A stretch of DNA of 37,862 bases from positions 1 through 37,862 of IMG/VR virus record IMGVR_UViG_3300038451_000177; one strand, given 5' to 3'. Source of the DNA: a virus. The position numbers and the translations under genes were made by a program. Under the pieces are notes generated by a model. The model ran no database searches. It was not told where the DNA came from and saw nothing but the letters and a program-made list of their open reading frames with translations. Positions 2,154 to 36,932 of the stretch are shown piece after piece; position 1 is the first letter of the stretch; every line of letters starts with the position of its first letter.

Positions 2154-2159
2154 TTCTTC

Positions 2160-2165
2160 AGTATA
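2160..2165 (-). promoter_or_regulatory. -10 box TATACT for the Tat-signal gene
   Basis: On the minus strand TATACT matches TATAAT at 5 of 6 positions and is separated from ATG 2153 by only 6 nt (GAAGAA), which would give a leaderless message. No good -35 is visible at 16-18 nt. The same 15-bp gap separates the divergent start at 2169. Confidence 0.4.
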
Positions 2166-2168
2166 GCC

Positions 2169-5530: not shown

Positions 5531-8500
5531 ATGGCAGACCAAGACCTCGGTGGCGGCTGGACCGTTGCCGGCGCAACACAATCCACACCACCCTCGCCCC
5601 CGCCCGCTCAAACTCAGCCACAGGACCTGGGCGGTGGCTGGACTGTGGCAGCCGCTCCGGCGCCTCCCGTCCGCGCTCCGGCCCCCTCGGTTCCTCCCCC
5701 TCCACCCTCCGCGGTATCACCTGATACCGGGGATCAAGACCAAGACATTCAGGCCCCAGCTTCGGCCTACGCCCCTCCCACCCGTTATGGCCGCAATCAG
5801 CAGGGAAGTCTCGTCTCGAAGTGGAATGGATCGAACTGGGTAGATTTGTACAACGGCAAAAAGGTAGGAGCGCCGGCCAAAGAAGAATCGGGACCGCAGT
5901 ACGGGCCAGGACAGGACTTTGCCGCGCAACCCCCCGCGGCTGGACAGCTAGGCCCCAGCCCAACGGGCGCCCCATCGCCGCAGATCCAGGAACGGGAGAT
6001 CCCCCCTGCGCCACAGGCGCCCCCCATCCTCGGCATCTACGCTCGCAAGCCAGGGACCCCGACATATGTTGGACCAGGGGGGCGAACCTACACGCCACCC
6101 CCGGAGGAAACCACCGCTCAAACCCTTCAGAAATTTCTACTTTCGCCGCCGCCCTTCGTTCAGGACGCCGTGAAAGAGTTGAACCAGATTATGGTCGGCC
6201 CCTTCCAGATCATCCAGAAGGGCATCATCGAGCCTGCCGCCGGCATGATATCGCCCGCGGGGGCAGCGATGGCAGTCACCGGCGCCGGCTTGGGCGCGGC
6301 AGCGGCATCCTCAAGCGCGCAGATGGCGGCGGCAGGCAAAGCTGCGGATGCAGCCCTCTCGACGTTCTTCACGGGCTTACAGGCGCGCCAGATCACCAAA
6401 GAAGTTCCCGAGGCTTACGACGCCTACCAGAAAGGTGACTACTGGGGCGCCCTGGGCGAGTTGGGCGCCGCCGGCACATCGGCATTTCTTGGAACGCTGG
6501 CGGGAATGCACGCCGCCGGGCAACTCAGTGATGTCGGCGCGCTGTCGGCAACGCGGCGCGCGCTCCAGGAACGGCTAAACGCCGAGGAAGCCTATCGCGC
6601 GGCAGGCGAGCGGGCCGACGCAGCCAGGGCCGCCGCAAACAGACCAAGGCTGGCAGCCCCGGCACCGGAAGTCCCCGAAACGCCACCGGTCCCTGGCGAG
6701 CCACCGGCGCCAGCCCCCCTCCCGCCAGAAGCCGCCCCCACCGCTGTACCGACGCCCCCCGAAGCCCCGCCACCGCCCGCAGCCGCCGTGGACCTCGGCG
6801 AAGGCTGGCGCACCGCCGCTCCGCCGCGGGTGCCCCAAGAACCGGCTGCCGCCGCGCCGCCCGCTGTGTCTGTACCGCCGCCGACTATGGCCGCAGCACC
6901 ACCTACCGCCGCCCCCGCCGCCGGCGCAGCCCAGAAGCCGGAAGGTCGCTCTGGCGAGGATTTGATTCGCGGCTCGACCAATATCCCCCTCTCCCCGCAA
7001 GGAGTCGAGCAAGCCAACCAAATCGGGCAGCGCTTCGCCCAGAAGGGCGGTTTGGACCTGGTGGTGAGTTCCGACATGGACCGAGCGGTTCAGACTGCGG
7101 CTCCGATTGCCCAAGCCAGCGGGGCCTATTTCAGCCACGCCACTGAAGGTTTGCATCCCTGGTATCTGGGAGAGGTTGAGGGCCAGCCGACCGAAAAGGT
7201 CCTGGATCGCCTGAACGGCTTCATCGACGACTCGCCGGATAAACCCGTGCCCGGCCGCAGCGAGGGATCCACACAGAACGGCGAAGCGTTCAACACCTTC
7301 AAAGAGCGGGCCATCGGAACGGTTCAGGATTTGATGGACCAGTACGCTGAGGCTCAGGCAAACGACCAGCCCATCAAAATCGGAGCGGTCACGCACTACC
7401 GGGACGTGAAACTGCTCCACGCGTGGGCCGATGCGGGATTTCCGGAGAACCTGGACAAGTTCCAACCTTCGAGCGATGAGATGACCGGCAAGGACGATCC
7501 GCCGGGCAGCGTCCAGCAAATTTCACAGGATGCCAAGGGCAAGTGGCAGATGCAGCCGGTCGATATGGCGAGCAACGCGGCGCTTCAGCCAGGAATCTAC
7601 ATCATCCGGCACAGCCCCACGGTCTATAACGCCGAAAACCGCAACATCCCGGCGCCGCCGGTGGGTCAAATGCCCCAGGCTCAGACCCCGGTTCGAACCC
7701 CTCCTCCGGCTCCGGCTGTGGTTCAAACGCCACAGCCTGTCACCCCAATTGGCCGCACCTTACCTCCTCCTCAGCCCCCTGGAATCGTTCCTGCGCCTCC
7801 GCAGGGCCAAGGGGCCGAAATAGCGCCCGTGCGAACGCCCTCCGGTGCCACGGTCACACCAAATACGGTGTCAATGGAGCGCGCCGACTTCGAGCAGGAG
7901 CACACGGATCTGCCGAGGATTCTGCGCGAGGGCACACCAGCGGAGCGTGAGAAAGAAGCGGCGGAGCAGGCGCAGGAGTTGAAGGAAGTTCAGGCGGTGA
8001 ACGCTCGGGAGCCTGGCTGGGTCGGCAACGTTCCAACCTCCGAAATCAAGGTAGATGCTCCGCGCTTCCAGTTCAAGGCCAACGTGGGCCAAGGGGGTGT
8101 CGGGGAAGAGTCGCGCGACATCACCCGGTGGGACCCGGAGAAGTCGGGTGTCCTGGCCGTATGGAAAGACCCCGCGGACGGCCAGACCTACGTGGTCAAT
8201 GGCCATAATCGGCTGGACCTCGCCAGGCGTCTCAATGTCCCCGAGGCCACCGCCCGCTATTTGGTTGCCAACAACGCGCAGGAAGCGCGTCTCAAGGGCG
8301 CACTCATCAACATCGCCGAAGGTAGAGGCGAGGCCACCGACGCGGCCAAGATATTCCGCGATTCTCGCATGACTCCGGAGCAGTTGCGCGCCAACGGGGT
8401 CTCGCTCACGGGCAAGGTGGCCAGCGAAGGGCTGGCGCTTTCGAATCTCTCGCAGCCCATCTTCGACGACGTGATTAACGGAACCCTCCCAGTCGCCAGA

Positions 8501-11500
8501 GGGGCGGTGATCGGCGCCGGCGTCCCCAACCATGCGGACCAGCAGGCGCTCTACGACCTGATGCGCCAGCGCGAGCAGGGTGGCAAGCGGCTCACCAACG
8601 ACCAACTCGGTGAATTGATCCGCCTCAACCAGCGGACGTCGACCGTTACGGAGCGCCCCGAGGACGAGGTCCAGACCTCCATGTTCGGCGAGGAGGAGAT
8701 GACGCGCTCGCTCCTTCCGGAGAAGGCCGAGATTTCCGACTACGTTCGGAAGCAGTTGGCGGCCGAGAAGAAGCTGTTCGGAACCGTGGCTGCGGCCCCG
8801 GCTGCGGAGCGCCTCACGGAAGCCGGAAACATAGTACTGACCACCCAAAATGCCCAGATCGCGGAGCGCGCCAACCAGGGCATTCTGTTGTATGATCGAC
8901 TCAGCACCTCGGTCGGTCCGATCGATTCGATTCTCGATCAGTCGGCCAAGTCGCTGGCCGGTGGAGAAAGCGCCCATGAAGTCAAACAATCCGCCTACCG
9001 CCAAGTCCGCAACCTCCTCGCGGCCCAGGTCCGTAAACTCACCGGAGTTCCGCAAGGACATGATCGAGGAGTTAAGGGACTGGGTGAACAAGGGCCACGC
9101 CAAGCTGGCCCCGGGGAATACGGTCAGCCGCTACAGTCCCGTGCAGTAGGTCCACTTCCAGGCCAGCAATCCTTCCTGGTTCCAGAAACCGAAGCCGAGT
9201 CTCGGGCCATCGCGCAGTTGAACGAGGCACGGCTGCTGCATGACCAACTCACCGCGCAGATCCGGTCGGGGATGGCGGCGAAACCAGGGAAGCTGAAGCC
9301 CGCGAAAACCCGCGATCTGTTCGCGGAGGAAGGACCGGAGCAAGGCGGTCTCTTCGCCCGCCGCCTCAAGACCACGCCCGACATGTTCCGCCGCGTGCCC
9401 GAGGTGACGCCTGGCGGCCGCGGCTTCTGGGTCTACCAGGGGAAAGTGATCGACGCCGGCACGGACTTACATGCCACGGTGGCGCAGCGGGCGCTCCCGG
9501 GGTCGCTCTTCCAGGAAGCCGTCGGCAAATTGATGGGCGAGGGCGCCATCCGCGTGCGTGGCGAAAACCTGGAAATGCACCAGCACGCGCTCGACTCCAG
9601 CAATCTGCAGCCGGCTGTCGAGCAGGCGGTCAAAGAAGCCCAGCGCAAGCGCGCGCGAGAAATCGGAGTAGAGGTGCGGACCAGCCCGGACCACGCGGAT
9701 TACATGACCGTGCCGCTCCCAGAGGTGGGAGAGTTCCTGGCAAGTCCCCGGCGGTACATGGGGAATCGGGCAATCGCAGCCTTACAGGCGCGGCGTCGCG
9801 TCTCACCCGATCAACTCAACCTACTGCCAGGAATCACGCGATTGAAAGACGCCGGTCGCGAGGACGTGGAGCAGTACTGGGAGGCCGCGGATTCGAAGCC
9901 TACCAGTGTGGAACGTGTCCCGTGCCTCCTGGTGAACAACGCCGCTATGGACGCAGTGTTGCGGAACATGGGGCCTACCGGCCGGAACGCCACTTCGGAA
10001 GCTACCCATGCGGTGGCTCTCAACCCGGCCGAACAGCGGTATATTCTGGCCGCAGCCAAGAGCCTCCGCGGTACGCAGCCGAATGCGTTCGAGAGAGCGC
10101 TACTCAAAATCGCTCGCCAGATTCGCACTATTAACCCCGGTGGCAGACCTCTGCCTGTGATCCAGACAGGGGCATCGATCACGGGTGAGAATCTGGCGCT
10201 GAACGTCCAGGAGGAGATCGACCACAGCAGGCAACTCGCTCTACACAGGGGCTTGTATGGTTTGCCGGTCGAGGTGGTCGAGACCCCATTAGGGGCTCGG
10301 TGCGCGATGGTGTTGGCGGAACGCGCCGGCTATGTCACACTAGACCCGCAATCGGCCTTCTACGAGCATAACCGGGCTGTCATTGCTGCGGAGATTGGTG
10401 TCCGCCTGATGCGCCCCGGGAGATATCATGAGATGGGCGTGACTGCCGATGAAGCCGAAGCCCTCGGCCAACAGTACATCCGCCATCTGAAGAAGCACCC
10501 CGGCGCGGCAGCCCGCGTCATACTGGAGCAAATCGATGCCACGATCAGGCAGAATCAACTTCTTTCTCTCTCCGAACGCAATCTCGCTCTGGAAGGGGGA
10601 GAGCCACTTCACCCTGAAAAGGCCATCGGACCCCCAGGAGTTGGAGGCGCTGTTTCGCCGACTTATCCAGGAGGACGGCCTGGAGGGCGAGGAGTTGGAG
10701 AGCGCGGTCCAGGAGATGATGAAGAAGGCGGCGGCGCTCCCTCAGCAGCAAGATCCGGGTACCAGCCGCAGCCCCTTGCCGCCCGAGCCCCCAAAGTAGG
10801 CGGAGGCGAATCCCGCCCGGTCCGTGAGTTTCTGGGTGAAGAGGCCGGGACCTCGCGCGTCGGGGAAATTCTGAAGGCCGACATCAAGGAGGCGCTGGCT
10901 CTCAAATCCAAGCGGGACGCCGCTATCCAAGTCCTCGAAGAGGCCAAAGCGGACCCGGCGGTCAAGGACCTGGCCGACCGGCTGGCATCGGCCTACCTGG
11001 CCGAACGGAACCTCTGGGCCACGCGGGTCAACCAAGTTATAGGCCGTCTGCGCAAACTGGTGCCGAGTCCTGTGGACCAGGAAGGCATCGCCATCATGCG
11101 GGATATGTACGGCTGTCCAGGTGAACTGGAGCAGTGGGCTGCGGGCACGCATCCGAACCTCGCCACTCTTGATCCCGAGAAGCGCGCCGCGTTCACGCGG
11201 AACATCGACCGTCTGGGGCCGGCCATCGAACGAGCGCAGAATCCGACTCCGGAGATGATCCAGGCCGACCAGGTGCTGACCAAGATGGCGCGGGCCACCA
11301 TGATGGAAGGTCAGATGCGCGGGATTATCGAGCGCGGCCTGACTCCCGAGCGGTACTTCACTCACCTTCTCTGGCCCAAAGGCGAAGGGGAAGCTCCCAA
11401 GCCCGCGTCACAGCGCATAGGCCAGATGCTGGGTGGCAAGATCAGCCGCTACTTCGCCTTCGCGGAGCACCGCTCCTACCCGACGATCTTCGACGCCATC

Positions 11501-13225
11501 GCCGACGGCGTGCGGCCGAAGACCCTGAACGCTTTCGACGCCGCCACGATTCACGGGGACAAGTTCGCCACCGCGCGCGCGACGCGCATCCTCCAGGATG
11601 AGCTGGAGGAAAACCACATGGGAGTGTGGGGCGCGCCGCGAGCGCCTGGCATCCCGGAGAACTGGGTCGAGTTGGCGCCGCACGCCCGGCTCTTCCGTAA
11701 CGAGATCCCGGTCACGGACCAGGAGGGAAAGCAGACCTTTGCGCTGCAAACCTTCTGGACGCCCCAAGTCGTGTCGGACGCTTTGCGACCGATCACCGAC
11801 CCGGACTACATGCGCGTGATAAAAGGCTTCGGAAACCTGCGTGCCCGCCAGGCGCTTCTCAAGCAGGCGACGCTGAGCCTTTCACTGTTTCACGCGCGCG
11901 CCCTCAATTTGATGGCGTTCTACAATCTGGGACCGGTGGGAATCACGAAGGGGCTGCTCTGGTTTAAGCGCCTGGGAACCAGCATGGACAATCCCGACTT
12001 CGAGCGCGCCGAGCGCCAGTTCGTAATGGACGGCGGAACCACGACGATGATGGGCAAGAGCGTCGAGGCATACAAGTCGCTGGAGCCGGGCTCCATTCCC
12101 ACGTGGACCGACATCTGGAGGAGGGTGCCGGTGATCCGTGAAATGGATGCGGCGGCCAATACGGTCACCCGCGGCACCTTTGACATTCTGCAACGCTTTT
12201 GGAAGGTAACCGACTACCAGATCAAGCGGACGGCCTGGATGGCGAAGCATCCCGGCGCCAGCCAGAGCGAATTATCGAAAGCCGGCGAGAGCATCGCCAA
12301 GGAAATCAACGCGGTCTACGGCGGCCTGAACTGGGAAAAACTCGGAGCGAATCACGCCACCGTGGAGGCGCTGCGCGCGATCATGTTGGCTCCCGACTGG
12401 ACCATCTCCAACATCTTCAATGTGAAGTACGCTCTCGAAGGGACGGTGCCGGCCGGCCAGACCACCGTGGGCATGAAGGCACTCGGCGCTGGCGGACCGA
12501 TGGGCACCGGCGCCCCTGAGTTCACCTCGGCCGGCAAACGCGAGTGGACCCCGGCCGGGAAGGCGGCTCGCCTTTTCTGGATGCGCGCCGCGGCCTACAT
12601 CGTCATCGGCTCGGAGTTGGCAAGCTTTGCCCTGACCCGCCGCTGGTCGAAACGGCCTACGCGGGTGCTCGTCGGAACGGACAAGGACGGCCGGGACGTT
12701 TACGAGAACTGGTTCGCCGCCGGAGCGCCCCAGGACGTCCAGTCCTTCATCGACAATTCCGCTCGTTACGGCGCTCTGGGCGGGGCGGTGCGAACCATGA
12801 CGAACAAGGCGGCACCGCTTTTCCGCACCGGCCTCGAAGCCGCCAAGAACGAAGACTTCCTGGGGCGCCCGATCGTGCCCAGGGGCATGAACTTCTGGGC
12901 CGCCACGGCGCGCGGCGGAATCCACGCCGCCAAGGGCCTGGCGCCGATTCCCTACAGCTTCCAGAACGCCTGGAACATGCTGGCTGGGCCGGACAGGGAT
13001 CGCTACAAGCCTGGAGAGGTTGCGGCTACGATACTGACCGGGACCCCGCCGATCCACGTTCGGCCGCAACCGCCGGAGCGGCCGAAGCTCTCGACATGGG
13101 AGCAGATCAAACAGAATCGGGTCTACCAGAAGAAACCCGCCGCACTCCCGCCCCAACTCCGCCAGGCATTCCCCGCCCCTCCCCGTCTTCCTAAACTTCC
13201 CGGACAGCAGCAGCGCACGCGGTAA
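5531..13225 (+). CDS. Giant polyvalent protein: permuted histidine phosphatase, DdrB/ParB-like domain, zincin-like region, helical C-terminus
   Basis: 2564 residues. Order: Pro-rich N-terminus with DLGGGWTVA twice and DLGEGWRTA near 421; hydrophobic Ala/Gly region (about 195-345), perhaps membrane-inserting; histidine phosphatase elements (476-700) in permuted order, with IRG 479-481, SSDMDRA with R518, E548 in LGEVEG, H622 in VTHYRD, then R693-H694 in IIRHSPTVYNAEN; DdrB/ParB-like domain (about 780-1180) with VVNGHNR at 888-894; a putative zincin-like region with EEIDH at 1561-1565 in place of HExxH; and a long helical C-terminus. Giant multidomain proteins of this sort are called polyvalent proteins and are thought to be injected to counter host defences. 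Codon-position bias leaves this frame at about 9030-9149 and 10590-10799 (separate entries), so shorter products or indels are possible. No Shine-Dalgarno site precedes ATG 5531. Confidence 0.8.
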   Translation: MADQDLGGGWTVAGATQSTPPSPPPAQTQPQDLGGGWTVAAAPAPPVRAPAPSVPPPPPSAVSPDTGDQDQDIQAPASAYAPPTRYGRNQQGSLVSKWNGSNWVDLYNGKKVGAPAKEESGPQYGPGQDFAAQPPAAGQLGPSPTGAPSPQIQEREIPPAPQAPPILGIYARKPGTPTYVGPGGRTYTPPPEETTAQTLQKFLLSPPPFVQDAVKELNQIMVGPFQIIQKGIIEPAAGMISPAGAAMAVTGAGLGAAAASSSAQMAAAGKAADAALSTFFTGLQARQITKEVPEAYDAYQKGDYWGALGELGAAGTSAFLGTLAGMHAAGQLSDVGALSATRRALQERLNAEEAYRAAGERADAARAAANRPRLAAPAPEVPETPPVPGEPPAPAPLPPEAAPTAVPTPPEAPPPPAAAVDLGEGWRTAAPPRVPQEPAAAAPPAVSVPPPTMAAAPPTAAPAAGAAQKPEGRSGEDLIRGSTNIPLSPQGVEQANQIGQRFAQKGGLDLVVSSDMDRAVQTAAPIAQASGAYFSHATEGLHPWYLGEVEGQPTEKVLDRLNGFIDDSPDKPVPGRSEGSTQNGEAFNTFKERAIGTVQDLMDQYAEAQANDQPIKIGAVTHYRDVKLLHAWADAGFPENLDKFQPSSDEMTGKDDPPGSVQQISQDAKGKWQMQPVDMASNAALQPGIYIIRHSPTVYNAENRNIPAPPVGQMPQAQTPVRTPPPAPAVVQTPQPVTPIGRTLPPPQPPGIVPAPPQGQGAEIAPVRTPSGATVTPNTVSMERADFEQEHTDLPRILREGTPAEREKEAAEQAQELKEVQAVNAREPGWVGNVPTSEIKVDAPRFQFKANVGQGGVGEESRDITRWDPEKSGVLAVWKDPADGQTYVVNGHNRLDLARRLNVPEATARYLVANNAQEARLKGALINIAEGRGEATDAAKIFRDSRMTPEQLRANGVSLTGKVASEGLALSNLSQPIFDDVINGTLPVARGAVIGAGVPNHADQQALYDLMRQREQGGKRLTNDQLGELIRLNQRTSTVTERPEDEVQTSMFGEEEMTRSLLPEKAEISDYVRKQLAAEKKLFGTVAAAPAAERLTEAGNIVLTTQNAQIAERANQGILLYDRLSTSVGPIDSILDQSAKSLAGGESAHEVKQSAYRQVRNLLAAQVRKLTGVPQGHDRGVKGLGEQGPRQAGPGEYGQPLQSRAVGPLPGQQSFLVPETEAESRAIAQLNEARLLHDQLTAQIRSGMAAKPGKLKPAKTRDLFAEEGPEQGGLFARRLKTTPDMFRRVPEVTPGGRGFWVYQGKVIDAGTDLHATVAQRALPGSLFQEAVGKLMGEGAIRVRGENLEMHQHALDSSNLQPAVEQAVKEAQRKRAREIGVEVRTSPDHADYMTVPLPEVGEFLASPRRYMGNRAIAALQARRRVSPDQLNLLPGITRLKDAGREDVEQYWEAADSKPTSVERVPCLLVNNAAMDAVLRNMGPTGRNATSEATHAVALNPAEQRYILAAAKSLRGTQPNAFERALLKIARQIRTINPGGRPLPVIQTGASITGENLALNVQEEIDHSRQLALHRGLYGLPVEVVETPLGARCAMVLAERAGYVTLDPQSAFYEHNRAVIAAEIGVRLMRPGRYHEMGVTADEAEALGQQYIRHLKKHPGAAARVILEQIDATIRQNQLLSLSERNLALEGGEPLHPEKAIGPPGVGGAVSPTYPGGRPGGRGVGERGPGDDEEGGGAPSAARSGYQPQPLAARAPKVGGGESRPVREFLGEEAGTSRVGEILKADIKEALALKSKRDAAIQVLEEAKADPAVKDLADRLASAYLAERNLWATRVNQVIGRLRKLVPSPVDQEGIAIMRDMYGCPGELEQWAAGTHPNLATLDPEKRAAFTRNIDRLGPAIERAQNPTPEMIQADQVLTKMARATMMEGQMRGIIERGLTPERYFTHLLWPKGEGEAPKPASQRIGQMLGGKISRYFAFAEHRSYPTIFDAIADGVRPKTLNAFDAATIHGDKFATARATRILQDELEENHMGVWGAPRAPGIPENWVELAPHARLFRNEIPVTDQEGKQTFALQTFWTPQVVSDALRPITDPDYMRVIKGFGNLRARQALLKQATLSLSLFHARALNLMAFYNLGPVGITKGLLWFKRLGTSMDNPDFERAERQFVMDGGTTTMMGKSVEAYKSLEPGSIPTWTDIWRRVPVIREMDAAANTVTRGTFDILQRFWKVTDYQIKRTAWMAKHPGASQSELSKAGESIAKEINAVYGGLNWEKLGANHATVEALRAIMLAPDWTISNIFNVKYALEGTVPAGQTTVGMKALGAGGPMGTGAPEFTSAGKREWTPAGKAARLFWMRAAAYIVIGSELASFALTRRWSKRPTRVLVGTDKDGRDVYENWFAAGAPQDVQSFIDNSARYGALGGAVRTMTNKAAPLFRTGLEAAKNEDFLGRPIVPRGMNFWAATARGGIHAAKGLAPIPYSFQNAWNMLAGPDRDRYKPGEVAATILTGTPPIHVRPQPPERPKLSTWEQIKQNRVYQKKPAALPPQLRQAFPAPPRLPKLPGQQQRTR
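9040..9149 (+). other. Internal +1-frame coding tract ending in TAG (first frame switch in the giant gene)
   Basis: In the main frame this stretch is low-complexity (GVKGLGEQGPRQAGPGEYG) with weak GC bias at third positions. In the +1 frame it reads SPEFRKDMIEELRDW, then KGHAKLAPGNTVSRYSPVQ, and stops at TAG 9147-9149, with strong GC-rich third positions like real genes here. Reaching this frame by a +1 shift near 9030 would give a product of about 1205 residues that ends after the DdrB/ParB-like domain. Alternatives are a fixed indel or an assembly error. Confidence 0.55.
10590..10799 (+). other. Internal +1-frame coding tract ending in TAG (second frame switch in the giant gene)
   Basis: The main frame here is a Gly/Pro/Arg linker (GPPGVGGAVSPTYPGG). 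The +1 frame encodes a helix-like sequence (DPQELEALFRRLIQEDG, then LESAVQEMMKKAAALPQQQ) with nearly all third positions G or C and stops at TAG 10797-10799. A G5 run at about 10595-10600 is a possible slip or indel point. A +1 shift would yield a product of about 1755 residues. No ATG, GTG or TTG start exists in the main frame for some 260 nt downstream, so the later part still needs translation through this region. Confidence 0.55.
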
Positions 13226-13237
13226 GCCTTGGTGGTG

Positions 13238-13408
13238 TCACGCCATCATCTTTCGCCAGCAGTCGTCACACACGATGGCCGGCTCTCCTCTGTCCTGTAA
13301 GCGCATCCACTCTGGAAAGGTCTCGCGGTACTCCTCCAGAGCTTCGTCGTCGTCCCTCACTTTGGAGAATGTACCGCCGCACTGCGCGCAGATGTAAGTG
13401 TCGCTCAT
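13238..13408 (-). CDS. Small phage zinc-ribbon protein
   Basis: 56 residues, last gene of a minus-strand operon. CAQCGGTF (residues 8-15) and CDDC (47-50) form a four-cysteine zinc site, with an acidic middle (DDDEALEEYRETFPEW) between. I recognise this layout from small phage proteins of unknown role. The start ATG 13408 overlaps the stop of the upstream gene in an ATGA arrangement, which decides it over an upstream in-frame methionine. Confidence 0.7.
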   Translation of the reverse strand: MSDTYICAQCGGTFSKVRDDDEALEEYRETFPEWMRLQDRGEPAIVCDDCWRKMMA

Positions 13409-13617
13409 GGGTCGTAGCCGCATTGTTCCCACGGTTGCAGCGCCCCGTTGGCGATGCAATTAAGGATGCACCCGGCTGGCACCGGCTGTTCCGGCTTGCA
13501 GCCGTCACACAACGCGAACGGCTCTCCGTCGCGGGATACCTGCCAATTGTAGAGGCGGTAGAGGCGCACCTGCCTCGTGCCTTTCTTCGCTCCGGGCTTT
13601 ACACTGGAATCAGCCAT
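13405..13617 (-). CDS. Small cysteine-containing protein, unknown function
   Basis: 70 residues beginning MADSSVKPGAKKGTRQVRLY. Five cysteines (ALCDGCKPEQP, AGCILNCIANG, EQCGY) suggest a metal-binding knuckle. The 5' end overlaps the upstream gene by 8 nt and the 3' end overlaps the next by 4 nt, so it is a translationally coupled member of the minus-strand operon. I do not recognise the family. Confidence 0.6.
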   Translation of the reverse strand: MADSSVKPGAKKGTRQVRLYRLYNWQVSRDGEPFALCDGCKPEQPVPAGCILNCIANGALQPWEQCGYDP

Positions 13618-21871: not shown

Positions 21872-22119
21872 AAATCACCGTCGAGAGTACAACGAAGATC
21901 GTCGAGCTCAGCACTGGAGGCCGCGATCCTATGTTCGCCCGGATCTGGGAAGGCCAGACCGATTCCGGTATCCCCGTGCACTGCTACGTCACGCGGATTG
22001 CCGTCGCCAAGGATGAGGACTGCCCCCAGGTCGAGATGGAACGGTTCGAGCGCGAGCTACAAGAGCAACGCGCGCCATCGGCCGAGACTGAGGCGATTCC
22101 CCTGAGGATGATCCTATGA
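21868..22119 (+). CDS. Small beta-rich protein, unknown function
   Basis: 83 residues. Strand-like N-terminal half (MKITVESTTKIVELSTGG, then FARIWEGQTDSGIPVHCYVT) and an acidic helical tail (MERFERELQEQR). Similar short proteins occur in phage early regions, with no assigned role. ATGA-coupled on both sides. Confidence 0.6.
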   Translation: MKITVESTTKIVELSTGGRDPMFARIWEGQTDSGIPVHCYVTRIAVAKDEDCPQVEMERFERELQEQRAPSAETEAIPLRMIL

Positions 22120-22301
22120 GCGCCTCGGCAACCTGCGGCTCCCTGGCGAAGGTCTTCAGCGGTCCTTGCTTGGGCTGCGGCGCAACGGTGAATGTCTACG
22201 CGGAGCCTGACGAGAAGATCGATGTTTCGGAGTCGCTTCTCTGCGACGAGTGCATGGGGAAGCTGCTCAGGAAATTAACGGAAGAAGGGACCATCCCATG
22301 A
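22116..22301 (+). CDS. Zinc-ribbon microprotein
   Basis: 61 residues with CLGCGATVNV (near residue 18) and CDECMGKLL (near 43), a four-cysteine zinc knuckle. Coupled by ATGA to the genes before and after. Unknown function. Confidence 0.6.
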   Translation: MSASATCGSLAKVFSGPCLGCGATVNVYAEPDEKIDVSESLLCDECMGKLLRKLTEEGTIP

Positions 22302-22612
22302 GCGCGCCAATGCACGTCCATTTGCCGAGTCTTCACGTTCGGAACCGCGACGGCTCAGGGTTCGACTACGAGGAAGACCTGTCCTTTCCGGAGGGACTGG
22401 AAGACGACGACGCGGATCTCGACGTTCTGGATCTTCCCAGCGACGACGATGGCGCAGAACTTGACTACCTCGAAGCCAAAGAACTGGAGCGCCAATCCCG
22501 CATCGCCGCCGGTATCGAACTCGCCTGCGCTTCCTGCGGGTGCAGCGAGACTCAACCGTGTGAGGGAGGCTGCGTTTGGGCTACGCCGAATCTCTGCTCG
22601 AGGTGCGTATGA
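22298..22612 (+). CDS. Acidic protein with C-terminal CxxCGC/PCxGGC cysteine motif
   Basis: 104 residues. The middle is extremely acidic (EGLEDDDADLDVLDLPSDDD). The end holds CASCGCSETQPCEGGCVW followed by LCSRC, a cysteine-rich motif I know from many phage proteins (CxxCGCTxxxxCxGGCxW), presumably metal-binding. The acidic stretch could mimic DNA, a hypothesis only. ATG 22298 was chosen by ATGA overlap with the upstream stop. Confidence 0.65.
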   Translation: MSAPMHVHLPSLHVRNRDGSGFDYEEDLSFPEGLEDDDADLDVLDLPSDDDGAELDYLEAKELERQSRIAAGIELACASCGCSETQPCEGGCVWATPNLCSRCV

Positions 22613-24891: not shown

Positions 24892-25140
24892 ATGCCAAAC
24901 ACGAATGGGTGCGTCGTCTACGTGAAATGCGAGGGCTGCGGAATCACCGTGCTCAAGCACGGGCCCGATGCAGCCTGTCTGCCCGAGATCGGCAACACCC
25001 TGCATATCCTCCTTGGAAGGATGGGCTGGACCAGGGATCGCGGTCGGCTATGGTGTCCGCTGTGCGTAAGGCAGCGTCGCCCGGAGGCTCCTGGGGCGAG
25101 CCCGGCTGCCAGGCTGCCTCCCCTGCCCAACGGTCCATGA
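24892..25140 (+). CDS. Zinc-ribbon protein with Pro-rich tail
   Basis: 82 residues. CEGCGITVLKHG (near 13) and CPLCVRQRRP (near 55) form a zinc ribbon. The tail GASPAARLPPLPNGP resembles the ends of two nearby small proteins at DNA level. Overlaps the next microgene as ATGA. Confidence 0.6.
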   Translation: MPNTNGCVVYVKCEGCGITVLKHGPDAACLPEIGNTLHILLGRMGWTRDRGRLWCPLCVRQRRPEAPGASPAARLPPLPNGP

Positions 25141-26125: not shown

Positions 26126-26389
26126 GTGCCCCAACTGGGTTTAGCGCCTCGGTCCCCGATCAACGGAAGCGCCATCCTGCACCTGGCCGCCGCCATCCGT
26201 TCCGCCCGTCCTGAGCTGCCTGCGCACGACCGCTCCCGGTTGCTGCTGCGCGTGATCCAAGCCGTCGAAGCCCCGGTCCCAGCCTGCCCAGCCTGTAACG
26301 GCACCCTCCGGGTCTTTGTGTCCGGTTCGACGGGACGCATCGCGTTCGGCGGATTTCGCGCCTGCCCGCTTTGCACTAACCGAAGTTAG
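26126..26389 (+). CDS. Small protein with C-terminal zinc ribbon
   Basis: 87 residues from GTG 26126; the start is uncertain because GAGGA abuts it with no spacing. Helical middle (ILHLAAAIRSARPELPAHDR) and a terminal zinc ribbon (CPACNGTLRVFVSG, then ACPLCTNRS). Four-cysteine ribbons recur in at least six proteins of this region. Confidence 0.55.
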   Translation: MPQLGLAPRSPINGSAILHLAAAIRSARPELPAHDRSRLLLRVIQAVEAPVPACPACNGTLRVFVSGSTGRIAFGGFRACPLCTNRS

Positions 26390-28894: not shown

Positions 28895-29497
28895 ATGGCC
28901 ACCGCCCGGCGCCAACCCAAGAAAAATAAGCGAGTTATGAGCGCCTCGGGGAAGGTCATCAAGTACCTGACGCGGGCCGAGATCGAGATGTTCTTCCGGC
29001 AGGTCAAGGGCCTCCGCGACCGGGCCATCTTTCGGCTCGCATATCACCGGGGCCTGCGGGCCTCGGAAGTGGCCCTTCTCCAGCTTGGCGACTGGGACCC
29101 GAAGGAAGGGGTACTCGTGGTACACCGCCTGAAGGGATCCGTCTCGGCGCCGTTCCATCTGTTACCGGTCGAGGCGACCGCGTTGCGCGCCTGGCTCAGA
29201 GTGAGGGGCACGACTCCGGGTCCCATCTTCCTGAGCCGCAACCACCGGGGGATTTCCCGGTGGGCGCTCGACGAGTTGATGAAGAGGTACGCCAAGGCTG
29301 CGGGCATTTCGCCGGTTAAGGCGCACATGCACGCCCTGAAGCACTCCTGCGGAACGCACCTGGCCGAGATGGACGAGCCGGTCGTCATCATCCAGGATTG
29401 GCTCGGTCACCGGAACATCGCCAACACGATGGTGTACGTCGAGGTGACCAACAAGGCGCGCCAGGCGGCGACGGCGCGGCTGCGCAACTGGAAGTAG
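28895..29497 (+). CDS. Compact tyrosine recombinase (integrase)
   Basis: 200 residues, almost only the catalytic domain. Visible active-site residues: Arg55 in GLRASEVALL, Lys80 in HRLKGS, His146-x-x-Lys149-His150 in HALKHSCGTHL (Lys replaces the usual second Arg, a variant seen in other HxLKH family members), His172 in WLGHRNI, and Tyr181 in TMVYVEV. The N-terminal core-binding domain is reduced to about 25 basic residues, so DNA grip must come from the catalytic domain or a partner. It integrates the genome or resolves multimers. It is transcribed alone from an extended -10 promoter and lies just before the packaging genes. Confidence 0.85.
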   Translation: MATARRQPKKNKRVMSASGKVIKYLTRAEIEMFFRQVKGLRDRAIFRLAYHRGLRASEVALLQLGDWDPKEGVLVVHRLKGSVSAPFHLLPVEATALRAWLRVRGTTPGPIFLSRNHRGISRWALDELMKRYAKAAGISPVKAHMHALKHSCGTHLAEMDEPVVIIQDWLGHRNIANTMVYVEVTNKARQAATARLRNWK

Positions 29498-29532: not shown

Positions 29533-29763
29533 ATGAACTTCGATTGGATCGCTGCGGCCATGGCCGGCGCTGGCTTCGCCGCCAACCTTCTGTGGACGTT
29601 GCACAACCACGTCGTCTCGAAGGGCATGGTCGAGATCGAGAACAAGGTGCTGGCGCATATCGACGAGATCAAGGCGTGGGCCGATGAGAAGTTTGTCGAG
29701 GAGCGCGTCTGCTTGCTGCGCGAAGCGGAAGTGGCGCGTCGCTTGAACATCGTGGGCGCATGA
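29533..29763 (+). CDS. Small membrane-anchored coiled-coil protein
   Basis: 76 residues. N-terminal hydrophobic helix (WIAAAMAGAGFAANLLW) followed by a charged helix (MVEIENKVLAHIDEIKAWAD). The layout fits a pinholin or envelope-tethered protein, but there is no diagnostic motif. It overlaps the small terminase gene as ATGA. Confidence 0.55.
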   Translation: MNFDWIAAAMAGAGFAANLLWTLHNHVVSKGMVEIENKVLAHIDEIKAWADEKFVEERVCLLREAEVARRLNIVGA

Positions 29764-30263
29764 AGGGCAAGCGAGGACCGCGGCCGGGAGTAAACCGCAA
29801 GCCGAAAACTAAGCGCTTCGCAACCGCGAAGGCTAAGGCCAAGTTTCAGCAGCGACCCCATGGAAGGCCCCGACCCCATGGAACACCCCAGCCTGTACGT
29901 AAGCCACCGAGGCGATCATGGCGCTACTGCACCGCCCACGCGCGAAGCGGTAAGCGCTGCCGCAGGCCGGCCATCCGCGGTGGTACGGTATGCCACATTC
30001 ACGGGGGTGGCGCGCCCCAGGTCAAGCTGGCGGCGCGGGTGCGGCTGGCGGCTCTGGTCGATCCGGCCATTGACGAGCTCGCTCGGCTACTGACGGCGCG
30101 CAACAACCCCCGCGTCCGGCTGGGCGCCTGCAAGGACGTGCTCGACCGGAACGGGTATAAAGCGCCCGACCAGGTGCAGTTATCGGGCGACGTGGGGGGC
30201 GAGTTCAAGGTGATCTTCGTCGATGCAGAAGCAGGCGATGACGGCCACGGTGCCGGAGGATAA
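29760..30263 (+). CDS. terS: Terminase small subunit-like DNA-packaging protein
   Basis: 167 residues. Basic N-terminal tail, then YCTAHARSGKRCRRPAIRGG, then VCHIHGGGAPQVKLAA, a Cys/His motif known from phage packaging-region proteins (CxxHxRxGxxCxxPA...CxxHGG). A helical segment NPRVRLGACKDVLDRNGY follows. It overlaps the large terminase by 41 nt. Family knowledge and position make it the likely DNA-recognition subunit; direct DNA binding is inferred. Confidence 0.65.
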   Translation: MKGKRGPRPGVNRKPKTKRFATAKAKAKFQQRPHGRPRPHGTPQPVRKPPRRSWRYCTAHARSGKRCRRPAIRGGTVCHIHGGGAPQVKLAARVRLAALVDPAIDELARLLTARNNPRVRLGACKDVLDRNGYKAPDQVQLSGDVGGEFKVIFVDAEAGDDGHGAGG

Positions 30264-31551
30264 AGGCGAGGGTATACCGTTCGGGAAGTTTCCTGCCAAG
30301 CTGCGTTTCCTGTTCAAGCCGGCGCGCTACAAGGTTGCCTGGGGCGGCCGTGGAGCGGCGAAATCGTGGGGGTTCGCGCGGGCCCTGTTGATCCAGGGCA
30401 GAGAGCGGCGTCTGCGTTGGCTGTGTGCGCGGGAAACACAACAGTCGATCGCCGACAGCGTGCACCAGTTGCTAAAGATGCAGATTGAGGATCTGGGTCT
30501 CGCGGCGCACTACGTTGTCAAGCAGGCCGAGATCGTTGGAAGAAATGGAACGGAGTTCCTCTTCGCCGGGCTGCGCCACGACATCAGCAAGATCAAGTCC
30601 GTCGAAGCCTGCGATGGGGTGTGGGTCGAGGAGGCCCAGAACGTAAGCCGGCACTCCTGGGAAGTGCTCATTCCCACCATCCGCAAGGACGGCTCCGAGA
30701 TCTGGGTGACCTTCAACCCGGACCTGGACACCGACGACACCTACAAGCGGTTCGTCATCAATCCACCGCCGGGCGCGGCGGTGGTGCGCATGACGTACCG
30801 CGACAATCCCTGGTTTCCAGAGGTGTTGCGGCGCGAGGCGCGACTACTCGCGGAGCGCGATCCGGATGCGTACCAGCACGTCTGGGAAGGCTGCTGCATC
30901 TCGACGCTAGAGGGCGGAGTCTATGCGAAGGAACTCCGCCTGGTGGATCAAGAGCAGCGCATCACGCGCGTGCCCTATGATCCGACCAAGCCGGTCCACA
31001 CCTTCTGGGATCTGGGTTGGGGGGATTCGACGGCGATCTGGTTCGCCCAAGCCTATGCCTTCGAGTACCGGCTGATCGACTACCTGGAGGGCAGCCAGGA
31101 GCCCCTCAAGCATTATTTGAAGCTCCTGCAAGAGCGGCCCTACGTGTACGGCACGGACTACCTGCCGCACGACGCCAAGGCCAAGCAGCTCGGCAGCGGC
31201 CGGTCGATTGAAGAGCTCATGCGCGAGGCCGGCCGGAAGGTCGAGATCGTCGCCAAGCTGTCGGTCAACGACGGTATCAACGCAGCGCGCACGATCTTTC
31301 CGCTGTGCTGGTTCGACGCGGATAAATGTGCCGATGGGGTGCAGGCTCTGAGGCACTACCGCTTCGGCGAGAAATCCGAAGACGGCCGGCAGATGCGCGA
31401 GCCGCTCCACGATTGGTCGAGTCACGCGGCGGATGCCTTCCGCTACTTTGCGGTGGGAATGCGGCCCCCTGAGCAACCGGAGCGCGAGACGGCCGACGAA
31501 TTTTTCGAGGGACGTTTCACGGAAGGCCGCAATCAATCGTGGATGGGATGA
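30223..31551 (+). CDS. terL: Terminase large subunit (PBSX/Terminase_3 type)
   Basis: 442 residues. ATPase half: Walker A GGRGAAKSW (41-49), Walker B VWVEEAQ (Glu136/Glu137), and the coupling motif TFNPD (163-167). Nuclease half: FWDLGWGDST (Asp263, Asp268) starts an RNase H-like fold, with late acidic residues near HDWSSHAADAFRY. It packages DNA into proheads with ATP energy and cuts it to length. The alternative start ATG 30238 would remove 5 residues. Together with the small subunit and portal it defines the packaging module. Confidence 0.92.
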   Translation: MQKQAMTATVPEDKGEGIPFGKFPAKLRFLFKPARYKVAWGGRGAAKSWGFARALLIQGRERRLRWLCARETQQSIADSVHQLLKMQIEDLGLAAHYVVKQAEIVGRNGTEFLFAGLRHDISKIKSVEACDGVWVEEAQNVSRHSWEVLIPTIRKDGSEIWVTFNPDLDTDDTYKRFVINPPPGAAVVRMTYRDNPWFPEVLRREARLLAERDPDAYQHVWEGCCISTLEGGVYAKELRLVDQEQRITRVPYDPTKPVHTFWDLGWGDSTAIWFAQAYAFEYRLIDYLEGSQEPLKHYLKLLQERPYVYGTDYLPHDAKAKQLGSGRSIEELMREAGRKVEIVAKLSVNDGINAARTIFPLCWFDADKCADGVQALRHYRFGEKSEDGRQMREPLHDWSSHAADAFRYFAVGMRPPEQPERETADEFFEGRFTEGRNQSWMG

Positions 31552-31671: not shown

Positions 31672-32061
31672 ATGGCCAACGAAATCAACGTGACCGCATC
31701 GCTCGCGTACTCGAACGCAACCGCGAGCATCCTGGGCAAGCTCCTGGCCTGGCTCAATAAGCCGTTCACGATCTCTGGAGTGAACCTGGTGGTGGCCACC
31801 TTCAGCGTGCCCACCGTTAGCGGCGGAGGGCCGGCTGCCTTGCCTGGTCTGGACGTCCTGACTACCGTGGGATGGGCCGCGTTTGTGAACCACGATCCAA
31901 CCAACTACGTGGACCTCATGACCGCTGTGGCGGGCGTGGCGTTCGCGCGGCTCCTGCCGGGCGAGTGCGCGGTCTTCCGTCTGCCGGCCGCGATGGTGGC
32001 GCCGGCGGCGCTGGCGCATACTGCGGACTGTCTCATCGAGTACCTGATCCTGGAGAACTGA
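31672..32061 (+). CDS. Structural-type protein, first of a tandem pair
   Basis: 129 residues, starting MANEINVTASLAYSNATASI, with a beta-rich body and LLPGECAVFRLPAAMVAPAA near the end. The next gene is a clear paralogue. Proteins opening MANEI with this Ala/Thr/Gly bias are common in phage head or tail regions. It may be a decoration, fibre-base or head-closure protein, unresolved. Confidence 0.6.
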   Translation: MANEINVTASLAYSNATASILGKLLAWLNKPFTISGVNLVVATFSVPTVSGGGPAALPGLDVLTTVGWAAFVNHDPTNYVDLMTAVAGVAFARLLPGECAVFRLPAAMVAPAALAHTADCLIEYLILEN

Positions 32062-32064
32062 ATC

Positions 32065-32451
32065 ATGGCGAACGAAATTACCGTCACCGGATCGTTGACC
32101 TACGCGAACGCGGCTGCGGGGATCGCAGCGAAAGCCCTGTCGCTGCTGTCAAAGGCAATCACGATTACCGGTGTGAACTACATCCAGGGGACCTTCAAGG
32201 TGCCCACCACCTCCGGCGGTACGGCATTACCTGGCCTGTCCAGTTTGGCGAGTGTGGGCTGGGGCTGCTTCATCAACCACGACGCCACGCATTTTATTGA
32301 CCTGTTGACGGCGGCCAGCACGGGGACCGCGTTCGCACGTCTGATGCCTGGGGAGTGCGCGCTATTCCGCCTCACGCCGGCGATGACGGCACCGGCAGCC
32401 AAGTCTGACACGGCGATCTGCGACCTCGAGTATCTGGTGCTCGAGAACTGA
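32065..32451 (+). CDS. Structural-type protein, second of a tandem pair
   Basis: 128 residues, paralogous to the previous gene across the whole length: MANEI.VT start, FINHDAT versus FVNHDPT, MPGECALFRLTPAMTAPAA versus the equivalent block, and the same LVLEN or LILEN end. It starts 3 nt after the upstream stop. Tandem duplication with divergence suggests different copies of one virion component or a dosage change. Confidence 0.6.
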   Translation: MANEITVTGSLTYANAAAGIAAKALSLLSKAITITGVNYIQGTFKVPTTSGGTALPGLSSLASVGWGCFINHDATHFIDLLTAASTGTAFARLMPGECALFRLTPAMTAPAAKSDTAICDLEYLVLEN

Positions 32452-33325: not shown

Positions 33326-33571
33326 ATGGCCAAGCTGACCGTCGCGGAGCGAAAGAAGATCCCGCGTTCCAAGTTTGCCGTTCCCTCGAAGGCCCCGGGA
33401 TCGGGATCGTATCCCATTCAGGACAAGAGCCACGCGCGGAACGCGCTCGCCCGCGCCTCGGGGAAGCCCGTGGCCGCGCAGGTGCGTGCCGCGGTTCACC
33501 GGGCATATCCCAGTCTGCCCAAGGGATCGGGCAAGCTGCATTCGTTGGGCAGTATGGCGAAAAACAAATGA
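33326..33571 (+). CDS. Conserved basic phage protein (KIPxSKFA family)
   Basis: 81 residues. MAKLTVAERKKIPRSKFAVP, then SYPIQDKSHARNALARASGK are the hallmarks of a widespread small phage protein family (DUF6582-like) found near head genes. Lys-rich, probably nucleic-acid or capsid associated. It starts 2 nt after the upstream stop and is coupled to the next gene by ATGA. Confidence 0.7.
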   Translation: MAKLTVAERKKIPRSKFAVPSKAPGSGSYPIQDKSHARNALARASGKPVAAQVRAAVHRAYPSLPKGSGKLHSLGSMAKNK

Positions 33572-34038
33572 CCGCAGCACTGGCATTCCAACCACTGGGC
33601 GACCTCATCCTGGTTCGTCCCTTGAGCGCGATCCACGACGGCCTCATCGAGATTCCCGAGACCATCGAAGGCAAGCACTCGCACCAGCCAGGCGACTTCC
33701 AGGACAGCTTCATCGGCGAAGTGGTCGCGGTAGGCCCGGGTGACCGGCGGGTGCACGGCAACTGCCTGGTGTGTGGCGCGGCCAAGCTGCTCATCGTGAG
33801 CCAGTGGCGCGGGATCGGGCGCGGGCATGGCGGATTTGGCCTATGCGGAATATGTGGCGGCGTCGCCTGGAGAATCACCGGCGAGAGTCGCGCGCCGATG
33901 GAGTGCAAGGTAGGCGACCGGGTGATCTATGCGCGCCGGCCGAGCGCCCCAGGCGGCGACTCGGACATCGAGATCGACGGCGAACGCTTCATCATCTTTC
34001 ACGAGGAGCAGTGGGCCTTCGCGCTCCTCGAGGATTGA
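33568..34038 (+). CDS. GroES-like (Cpn10) protein with zinc-knuckle insertion
   Basis: 156 residues. The Cpn10 pattern is visible: FQPLGDLILVRPL, then GLIEIPETIEGK, GEVVAVGPGDR, CKVGDRVIYARR, and EIDGERFIIFHEEQWAFALL. An insertion of about 50 residues between GPG and KVGD carries C66-x-x-C69 and C93-x-x-C96, probably binding zinc. Phage GroES-like proteins can replace the host lid of GroEL for capsid folding (T4 gp31 is the known example). That role is inferred here. The mobile-loop region (about residues 18-38) is divergent, as expected if it fits a particular host chaperonin. ATGA-coupled upstream. Confidence 0.75.
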   Translation: MTAALAFQPLGDLILVRPLSAIHDGLIEIPETIEGKHSHQPGDFQDSFIGEVVAVGPGDRRVHGNCLVCGAAKLLIVSQWRGIGRGHGGFGLCGICGGVAWRITGESRAPMECKVGDRVIYARRPSAPGGDSDIEIDGERFIIFHEEQWAFALLED

Positions 34039-34538: not shown

Positions 34539-34545
34539 GGCATTT

Positions 34546-34737
34546 ATGAACGTTCGTTTCACCGGCTACTACTGGATGTGCGAGTGCGGCAGCTCGATGC
34601 TGTATCTCGATTCGGTAGAGAACGCGCCGCGCCGCCACATGACCTGCCAGCGAATGGGATGCCCGCACTTCGGCGAGGTCTTCCTGGAGCCCGTCTTTGT
34701 CGCTGAGCGCCTCGGAGCCAAGCCCGAGCAGGATTGA
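34546..34737 (+). CDS. Zinc-ribbon protein upstream of portal
   Basis: 63 residues with CECGSSMLYLDS and MTCQRMGCPHFGEVF, a four-cysteine zinc site. Its stop overlaps the portal ATG (TGATG), so expression is linked to the portal. Confidence 0.6.
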   Translation: MNVRFTGYYWMCECGSSMLYLDSVENAPRRHMTCQRMGCPHFGEVFLEPVFVAERLGAKPEQD

Positions 34738-36932
34738 TGCCCATCACACACATTCCTGGTCCCGTCGTGGATGTCGATATCACCGTGCCGGGCGATAAGC
34801 ACGAAGAACTGCTCACCCGAGCCCGCAAGCGCTTCGCGGCAGCGGAGGAGGCGGAGAAGGACATCCGCCTCGAAGCCGAGCTCGACCTGAAGTTCGTCTG
34901 CGGCGACCAGTGGGACCCCAAGGTCAAGCGCGACCGGGACCTGGCCAACAGACCGGCTTTGGTCTTCAACAAGCTGCAAACGCCCGTCCAGCAATTGGCT
35001 AACCAGGCAAGGCAGAACAAGCCGGCGATCCGAGTCAATCCTGTCGATTCTGCGGCTGATGTGGACACCGCCAAGGTCTTCCAAGGCATGATCCGGCATA
35101 TCGAGTACGACTCGGATGCGGATCAAGCCTACGACACCGCCCTGGAATACGCCGCCTCCTGCTCATTCGGCTACTGGCGCTACTCCAAGGAATACACCTC
35201 GGAGGAGAGTTTCGACCAGGACATCAAAACCGTTCGGGTGGACGATCCGTTCACGGTCTACCTCGACACGGACGCGCGCAAGCCCGACCGCAGCGACATG
35301 ATGTGGGCCTTCGTCATCGACAAGATGTCGAAGGACTGCTTCAAGTTGCGATTCGGCAAAGAGCCGAACGTTTTATCGGAGGATTTCCAGACCGAGTTGG
35401 CTGAGGAAGGGTGGATCGACGGCGAAGACGTTCGCATCGCCGAATACTGGGAAGTAGAGTTGAAGAAGCGCACGCTGCGCCTCCAGCGGTATGAGGATGG
35501 CACCATTCACCCGATCTACACCGATGAAATCGAAGGTGACGACAATGGTGTCGATTTTGTCACGGATGACGACGGACAGCCGCAGGAGCGCGAGGTTCAG
35601 GAGCGCCACGTCACGCAGTACATCATCAACGGCGCGGAAGTGCTCGAAACAAACCCGTGGGATGGCAAGTGGATCCCTATCGTGCCGGTGTGGGGCAAGG
35701 AGCTCATCGTCAAGGGCAAGCGCTGCCTCTTCAGCCTGGTGAGGTTTGCCAGAGACCCGCAGCAGCTTCACAACTTCTACAAAACCATGGAGGCTGAGAC
35801 CATCAGCCTGGCGCCGAAGCCCAAATGGGTTGGAGCCGTGGGCCAGTTCAAGACCAAGAAGCGGGACTGGCAGAGAGCCAACAGCGATAACGCCGCGTAC
35901 CTGGAATATGATCCAGTGGCGGTGGGCGACAAGATCGCTCCGGCGCCGCAGTGGGTCACCTTCGATCCGCCGGTGCAGGCCCTTAATATCGGCTCGCTCT
36001 CGACCGCCGACGATATCAAGGCCGCGACCGGCTATTTCGATCCGTCGCTTGGCGAACAAAGGGGTGATTCTTCCGGTATCGCCATCAACCGGCTTCAGAA
36101 GCAGGGCGATGTCTCGAACTTCCACTTCATCGACAACTTGGCGCGCGCGCAGAAGCAAGCGGGTCGAATTCTACTGGATCTGATTCCGAAGACCTACGAC
36201 ACCGCGCGCGAAGTGCGGATCATCGGCGACGACGAAAAGCAGCGCGTTATCAAAGTGAACGCGCCCTATAAAGACGAAGACGGCAAGGTCAAACACCACA
36301 AGCTGGATGTGGGCCGCTACGACGTGACGATCACCACCGGGCCGTCGTACACCACCCAGCGGCAGGAAGCCTTCGAACTCTTGACGCAACTTGCCCAGAA
36401 CAACCCGCAGGTGATGCAGATCGGCGGGGACATCATCTGGGAGAACTCGGACGTACCAGGCGCTGATCTTCTGGCGAAGCGCTGGAAGAAAACGCTTCCG
36501 CCCAACCTGGTCACAGACGAGAACCAGCCGGAAGTTCCGCCGCAAGTTCAGGCGCAGCTCGCCCAGAGCCAGCAGGTGATTCAGGTTTTGAATGGGCAGG
36601 TACAGAAACTCGCCCAACTGTTGAGCACGCAGGCGTTGAAACTGGAATCCCAAGAGCGCATCGCCACAGAGAACAACATCGCGCGGATCATGGCCGCCGA
36701 GATGGCCGGTAAATCCGCCGAGGCCCAGCAGGCCGCCCAACTCGACCATGACGCCGTAATGGCGGGGTTGAATCGCCGCGCGCAACTGCTCGACACCCTT
36801 ATCAGTATTCAGCAGGAGATGCAGCAGGCTCAACAGGCTCAGCAGCCGCCGCAGCCTCCGGCCCCGCAGGGAGCGCCGGCAACTCCGCAGGGAGCACCAC
36901 CGGCTGGTCCACAGGCAGCAGTAACGAGCTAA
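34737..36932 (+). CDS. Portal protein (P22-type)
   Basis: 731 residues. Recognised from the P22-like portal pattern: helical start (KRFAAAEEAEKDIRLEAELD), FVCGDQWDP, RPALVFNKLQTPVQQLANQA, GMIRHIEYDSDADQAYDTAL, CSFGYWRY, VDDPFTVYLDTDARKPDRSD, then RDPQQLHNFYKTMEAETISL and ATGYFDPSLGEQRGDSSGIA. The C-terminal 120 residues are Gln/Ala/Pro-rich, like a barrel-forming or disordered tail. It forms the ring through which DNA enters and leaves the head. ATG 34737 was chosen over TTG 34734 because of TGATG coupling. Confidence 0.9.
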   Translation: MPITHIPGPVVDVDITVPGDKHEELLTRARKRFAAAEEAEKDIRLEAELDLKFVCGDQWDPKVKRDRDLANRPALVFNKLQTPVQQLANQARQNKPAIRVNPVDSAADVDTAKVFQGMIRHIEYDSDADQAYDTALEYAASCSFGYWRYSKEYTSEESFDQDIKTVRVDDPFTVYLDTDARKPDRSDMMWAFVIDKMSKDCFKLRFGKEPNVLSEDFQTELAEEGWIDGEDVRIAEYWEVELKKRTLRLQRYEDGTIHPIYTDEIEGDDNGVDFVTDDDGQPQEREVQERHVTQYIINGAEVLETNPWDGKWIPIVPVWGKELIVKGKRCLFSLVRFARDPQQLHNFYKTMEAETISLAPKPKWVGAVGQFKTKKRDWQRANSDNAAYLEYDPVAVGDKIAPAPQWVTFDPPVQALNIGSLSTADDIKAATGYFDPSLGEQRGDSSGIAINRLQKQGDVSNFHFIDNLARAQKQAGRILLDLIPKTYDTAREVRIIGDDEKQRVIKVNAPYKDEDGKVKHHKLDVGRYDVTITTGPSYTTQRQEAFELLTQLAQNNPQVMQIGGDIIWENSDVPGADLLAKRWKKTLPPNLVTDENQPEVPPQVQAQLAQSQQVIQVLNGQVQKLAQLLSTQALKLESQERIATENNIARIMAAEMAGKSAEAQQAAQLDHDAVMAGLNRRAQLLDTLISIQQEMQQAQQAQQPPQPPAPQGAPATPQGAPPAGPQAAVTS

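Follow-up and report, generated by a model that had tools for sequence, protein, structure and literature searches.

A GroES-type co-chaperonin of a P22-like phage with two CxxCG pairs in a predicted roof-tip insertion

The stretch of DNA analyzed here (the window), a complete virus record 37,862 bases long, encodes a genuine if somewhat odd variant of the well-known GroES/Cpn10 co-chaperonin, with extra residues and two cysteine pairs at the tip of its roof hairpin. The explanation that we consider best overall, with a probability of roughly 55%, is that this protein serves as a lid for the GroEL of the host and carries a metal-stabilized crown on its roof. The parts of this explanation differ in strength: the protein is very likely to be a GroES-type lid, the insertion is probably a metal-binding roof module and the crown is, more tentatively and at less than even odds, a docking or closing element outside the folding chamber. 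The strongest counterpoints are that the insertion is found in a single invariant lineage and that the structural models of the insertion disagree.

The gene (Table 1) runs from an ATG to a TGA and encodes 156 amino acids, and its start codon lies on the stop codon of the upstream gene in an ATGA overlap. The protein matches Pfam PF00166 (Cpn10) over two stretches with an E-value of 2.4e-6 and 27.9 bits, which is above the curated cut-off of 21.1, and PHROG 3188 ("co-chaperonin GroES") with an E-value of 1e-4, while its top PDB sequences are the Cpn10 proteins of Thermus and M. tuberculosis, with E-values from 2e-4 to 0.02. The Pfam match is modest, as a record-wide search with PF00166 at an E-value of 0.001 missed the gene in the record of the window (G000) and listed it in a shorter record (G001). 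The highest-scoring stretch is always in the C-terminal half (residues 106-147, 107-148, 103-148 or 96-145); the N-terminal half alone scores 2-3 bits in the PDB sequence search and is placed by the alignment and the structural model. This model, predicted by AlphaFold2 for the full-length monomer with a 19-sequence alignment, has a mean pLDDT of 76 and a pTM of 0.68. Rows 1-19 of a Foldseek search against the PDB are all Cpn10/GroES structures, three of them with E-values of 0.001 or below (4.1e-4 to 9.7e-4), VIA-align gives a Z-score of 8.6 to M. tuberculosis Cpn10 (1p3h; 3.3 Å over 80 residues), and the closest viral structure matches are likewise GroES predictions. The monomer model thus gives a well-supported predicted GroES beta-barrel fold, and the original prediction of a phage GroES-like protein with a two-CxxC insertion is supported.

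Table 1. Positions of the features discussed, in the window or, for the tandem pairs, in the contig named.
Feature	Position	Strand	Basis
Probable small terminase subunit	29760-30263		
Large terminase subunit	30223..31551	+	Pfam Terminase_3 8e-40; PHROG 3717
GroES/Cpn10-like gene, 156 aa	33568..34038	+	Pfam, PHROG and PDB sequence searches; structure model
Putative GroEL-binding mobile loop, residues 23-46	33634..33705	+	Between model strands 13-22 and 47-55; alignment
Roof-tip insertion, residues 65-106 (boundaries uncertain to within a few residues)	33760..33885	+	Roof segment of 56 versus 14 residues; alignment
First cysteine pair, CLVC, residues 66-69	33763..33774	+	Sequence, cysteine-pattern scan
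Second cysteine pair, CGIC, residues 93-96	33844..33855	+	Sequence, cysteine-pattern scan
C-terminal Cpn10 half, residues 107-156, carrying the RAPMECKVGDRV motif	33886..34035	+	Pfam stretch 106-147; alignment; motif scans
P22-like portal protein	34734..36932	+	Pfam P22_portal 3.7e-167
Tandem Cpn10-like ORF pair, L004	4983-5776		
Tandem Cpn10-like ORF pair, L005	68-915		
Tandem Cpn10-like ORF pair, L030	730-1571		
Tandem Cpn10-like ORF pair, L032	3-733		
Tandem Cpn10-like ORF pair, L035	4938-6074		
Tandem Cpn10-like ORF pair, L036	5176-6020		
Tandem Cpn10-like ORF pair, L031	5381-4486	-	
Tandem Cpn10-like ORF pair, L038	4992-4148	-	
Tandem Cpn10-like ORF pair, L043	2625-1740	-	

In the mobile loop, whose binding to GroEL is putative, GLIEIP is aligned to the position of GIVLTG in E. 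coli GroES. The loop is long, with about 24 residues between the model strands; PMC6318259 gives 16 residues for GroES and 22 for gp31. An alignment with 18 other viral-contig Cpn10 sequences places the extra residues between GEVVAVGPGDRRVHG and SRAPMECKVGD. The roof hairpin of E. coli GroES comprises residues 44-58, and its tip residue Asn51 is located at the outer orifice of a dome hole of about 5 Å, as described in PMC5653362. In 34 distinct Cpn10-like sequences, which leave out the Cpn10s of L123-L129 that were read by eye only, the roof segment has 14 residues in 17 sequences, 5-9 in five, 27 in two and 37-57 in nine, with 56 in the protein described here; six of these rows were counted by hand (L003, 27; L032_3, L038_4690, L022 and L043_2302, 14 each; L105, about 8). 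As half of the compared sequences have 14 residues, about 42 residues are extra in this protein, so that the interruption of the Cpn10 framework claimed at first is real and somewhat smaller than the "about 50 residues" then given.

Both CxxC pairs were found in the translation at the claimed positions, 66/69 and 93/96, and each is followed by a glycine, which gives two CxxCG knuckles. A fifth cysteine, C113, belongs to the PMECKVGD motif that is common to insert-free relatives. When the protein's own residues were shuffled, two CxxC pairs 8-45 residues apart appeared in 218 of 200,000 sequences and two CxxCG pairs in 7 of 200,000, for patterns that had been defined after the sequence had been inspected. 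A foreign origin of the insertion was considered and set aside, since its GC3 (0.80) is similar to that of its flanks (0.78 and 0.88).

The nature of the insertion is less clearly indicated by the models. In the full-length model the insertion is of low confidence (block means of 79, 65, 49 and 69 for residues 61-100, with residues 83-87 below 50), and predicted strands at residues 59-66, 72-76 and 101-109 adjoin the cysteine knuckles, whereas residues 55-111 predicted alone form two helices in a helical hairpin, with a mean pLDDT of 63 and a pTM of 0.36. The two models thus disagree, both at low confidence, and a zinc-ribbon fold is not established by structure prediction. Because the insertion is of low confidence and folds differently alone, the case for a zinc ribbon comes mainly from the cysteine pattern. 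With the insertion as query, no zinc-ribbon family of Pfam scored above its cut-off (best, Zn_ribbon_RRN7, with an E-value of 0.016 and 15.3 bits against 27.1), the PHROGs gave no match and the PDB sequences gave nothing significant, two Fe-S chains having E-values of 1.6 and 1.9. In the full-length model, a weak resemblance of residues 55-111 was found to the N-terminal region of MCM (1ltl; VIA-align Z-score 4.7), which contains the zinc-binding subdomain of that protein; the tool warns that such a Z-score may reflect a common arrangement, and this resemblance is only a hint. The zinc module suggested in the original prediction is plausible: the two CxxCG knuckles, and the strands that the full-length model places next to them, speak for it, while the low confidence of the insertion and the helices of the insert-only model speak against it. 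From the cysteine pattern and the full-length model, we regard zinc as a plausible ligand.

The whole gene was found once more, on a separate IMG/VR contig (L001) that encodes an identical protein and differs from the window at 6 sites in 8,528 aligned bases, none of them inside the gene. Contigs L001, L009, L010 and L011 (99.8-99.9% identical) and L044 (identical terminase) belong to the same phage, and only L001 has the whole gene. Four other loci matched in the viral-contig search, L002 with the last 20 residues of the protein and L003-L005 with Cpn10s that have no insertion. No close relative of the whole protein was found in 50,697 phage records at E-values up to 1, and none was confirmed among 51 pattern-matching stretches of genome contigs; a plasmid search with the whole protein returned 10 weak matches (E-values of 0.2-0.8), and five of these carry a GroES annotation. 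Exact motif scans of viral contigs gave 2 stretches with PMECKVGDRV(I/M), 16 with MECKVGD and 19 with P[IML]EC[KQ]VGD, and among their Cpn10s, read by eye, the roof cysteine pair occurs in none except that of this phage; the stretches in L034, L041 and L126 proved not to be Cpn10. A scan for a gapped G-P-G plus two-CxxCG pattern, which is incomplete and assumes GGC for one glycine, yielded no other case among the matches listed from 237 loci. The only Cpn10 profile match among these 237 listed loci is weak (L173, E-value of 0.0089) and has no cysteine pairs. It falls in a long ORF at 985-2316 (+) of L173, in whose weakly Cpn10-like region the roof segment also appears long. Paired roof cysteines are thus found in 1 of the 34 distinct Cpn10-like sequences, that of this phage, and searches of open-licence full texts in PMC turned up no phage GroES described as having a zinc insertion or an insertion in its roof. 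That only one lineage was found with the insertion, with a gene that is invariant, weighs against the proposed metal-binding role of the four cysteines.

The alternative that survives best, although we think it unlikely, is a neutral or transient expansion of a loop in an ordinary GroES lid whose roof tip tolerates extra sequence. It would agree with the occurrence of the insertion in a single lineage, with the low-confidence and conflicting models of the insertion and with the long roofs without cysteine pairs in 9 of the 34 Cpn10-like sequences; the rarity of two CxxCG pairs among the shuffled sequences argues against it, as does the identical protein on a separate contig, although near-identity of the two contigs says little about selection.

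All nine of these long roofs are in second Cpn10-like ORFs (L004, L005, L030, L031, L032, L035, L036, L038 and L043), each of which follows a first one downstream in the same orientation, with the two either overlapping or separated by no more than about 210 bases. In every one of the second ORFs (9/9) the roof segment has 37-57 residues and no cysteine pairs. They score E-values of 5e-12 to 4e-5 with a profile built without them, and the Pfam Cpn10 profile matches all five that were compared with it, with E-values of 1e-5 to 0.02, although only the ORF of L043 passes the cut-off. The nine contigs with paired ORFs possibly encode a two-lid system. Enlargement of the roof thus seems to recur among phage lids, and the form clasped by cysteines may be one version of it.

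Another alternative, which we consider improbable, is that, in place of structural zinc, the four cysteines hold iron, as in a rubredoxin, or another metal, or have redox activity, so that the lid would respond to oxidation or metal supply. CxxCG pairs occur in rubredoxins too. HspA, a GroES with a metal-binding His/Cys-rich extension that serves in the handling of nickel (PMC3856676), offers a precedent for such a lid, but its extension is C-terminal, whereas in the protein of this phage the Cpn10 core reaches to the last residue, 156, and no His/Cys-rich C-terminal extension follows. Moreover, nothing indicates iron or redox activity, the E-values of the Fe-S matches given above being insignificant.

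The genome is that of a virus of bacteria, a P22-like phage. The GroES-like gene sits between the genes for the terminase and the P22-like portal protein, and an ORF located where a scaffold gene is usually found extends past the end of the window. Contig L010, which is 99.9% identical to the window over 2,663 shared bases, also extends past this end and encodes a P22-type coat protein (Pfam E-value of 7.8e-29) in an ORF of 437 codons; as its start codon is unsettled, the coat protein has about 411-437 amino acids and about 44-47 kDa (44 kDa for the reading of 412 residues). A gene of the GroEL family was found in none of 20 records, possibly incomplete, that include the window's own and that of L001 from the same phage, while the control was found in 14 of 14 genomes. 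As no such gene was found in the phage record, the lid presumably uses the GroEL of the host.

The size of the coat protein also bears on the suggestion, made in the original prediction, of a cavity extended by the insertion to take a large capsid protein. T4 gp23, of about 56 kDa, is slightly too large for GroEL-GroES, according to PMC6318259. The coat protein here is of ordinary size, and a larger chamber is therefore not needed; because it is also smaller than gp23 and the roof is enlarged, the idea of cavity extension loses its reason. That the insertion raises or enlarges the chamber for an oversized capsid protein, as T4 gp31 does for gp23, is accordingly very improbable: the long mobile loop of the model would suit it, since in gp31 a long loop accompanies a slightly larger chamber (PMC6318259), but the insertion is at the roof tip and not in the dome wall, and gp31 is described there as being without roof loops, which is the opposite of this protein.

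GroES genes recur near P22-like portals. Annotated GroES genes are located near terminase and P22-like portal genes in Xanthomonas phage PBR31, Phage DSL-LC05 and Podoviridae sp. ctn9Y15; eight annotated phage records were opened, PBR31 and DSL-LC05 having been chosen for their GroES match and six by portal similarity only, and an annotated GroES is present in one of these six (ctn9Y15). Among 12 other loci that bear a Cpn10, a portal relative was found in the examined stretch of 7 and not in that of the remaining 5. Such recurrence fits a lid that would serve head proteins. Most phages with such terminases nonetheless seem to do without a lid of their own. The best 80 of 89 loci matching the terminase include L001 and L044 of this phage, and among the remaining 78 a Cpn10-like gene with an E-value below 1e-3 was found in the examined stretch of one (L105), with border rows at E-values of 0.7 or above excluded; a whole-record Pfam search, not fully sensitive in that it missed the window's own gene, gave a Cpn10 match in 1 of 44 of these 78.

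Several other ORFs of the window were noted. The small protein directly before the portal gene, at 34543-34737 (+), has CEC and CQRMGC cysteines, is possibly zinc-binding and has no Pfam match up to an E-value of 0.1. Small ORFs with two CxxC pairs are located at 13238-13459 (-) and at 22116-22301, 22250-22612, 24892-25140 and 26126-26389 (+) and are possible donors of such modules; the same scan also gave two low-complexity minus-strand frames. Behind the terminase, adjacent ORFs at 31672-32061 and 32065-32451 (+) encode two proteins, of 129 and 128 residues, whose sequences seem similar on visual inspection; they have no confident family in Pfam or the PHROGs and are perhaps a tandem duplication. 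An integrase-like ORF of only 200 residues at 28895-29497 (+), just before the terminase genes, matches the C-terminal part of integrase families, and a single ORF at 5531-13225 (+) has 2,564 residues.

Returning to the host-GroEL lid with a metal-stabilized roof crown, we propose that the phage lid, probably as a heptamer, would seat on host GroEL through its mobile loop and assist the folding of phage proteins. Its most likely client would be the P22-type coat protein, whose gene lies past that of the portal. At the roof hairpin, the insertion of about 42 residues would take the place of the tip and most likely fold around one metal ion, with zinc as the first candidate, through its two CxxCG knuckles, and seven copies around the axis could form a crown atop the dome, above the small hole at its center. 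Such a crown would be outside the chamber, where we speculate that it serves for docking or for closing the roof and not for a taller chamber; modules at the roof tip might plug the hole, make the roof stiffer or bind a partner. The original prediction had offered a binding site as the other use of the insertion, and this is the use that we, speculatively, prefer.

In the usual picture of a chaperonin lid, the roof is a ceiling. The cysteine-clasped roof tip and the long-roofed second lids suggest that functions can also be acquired on the outside of the folding chamber. A broader proposal, which we offer as doubtful, is that phages repeatedly decorate the roofs of their lids, with a metal-clasped module or with a long-roofed tandem lid, and that the resulting crown over the dome holds a partner and couples folding in the chamber to head assembly at its outer face.

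Among known systems, GroES/Cpn10 (PF00166) of E. coli, M. tuberculosis and Thermus shares with the phage protein the predicted fold, the mobile-loop region, the GEVVAVGPG and VGD motifs and the C-terminal half, while the phage protein differs by its extra roof-tip residues with two CxxCG pairs and its longer mobile loop. T4 gp31 is also a phage-encoded lid with a long mobile loop, and its structure (1g31) matches the model with a Z-score of 6.3, but it has no roof loops (PMC6318259), whereas the roof of this protein is enlarged to 56 residues. The GroES proteins of PBR31, DSL-LC05 and ctn9Y15, unlike that of this phage, have neither the roof insertion nor the cysteine pairs. The second genes of the tandem-GroES phages are akin to it in roof length, but they have no CxxC and are the downstream members of a pair. 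Helicobacter pylori HspA is likewise a GroES homologue with an extra metal-binding part rich in His and Cys, but this is a nickel-binding C-terminal tail (PMC3856676), not a roof insertion.
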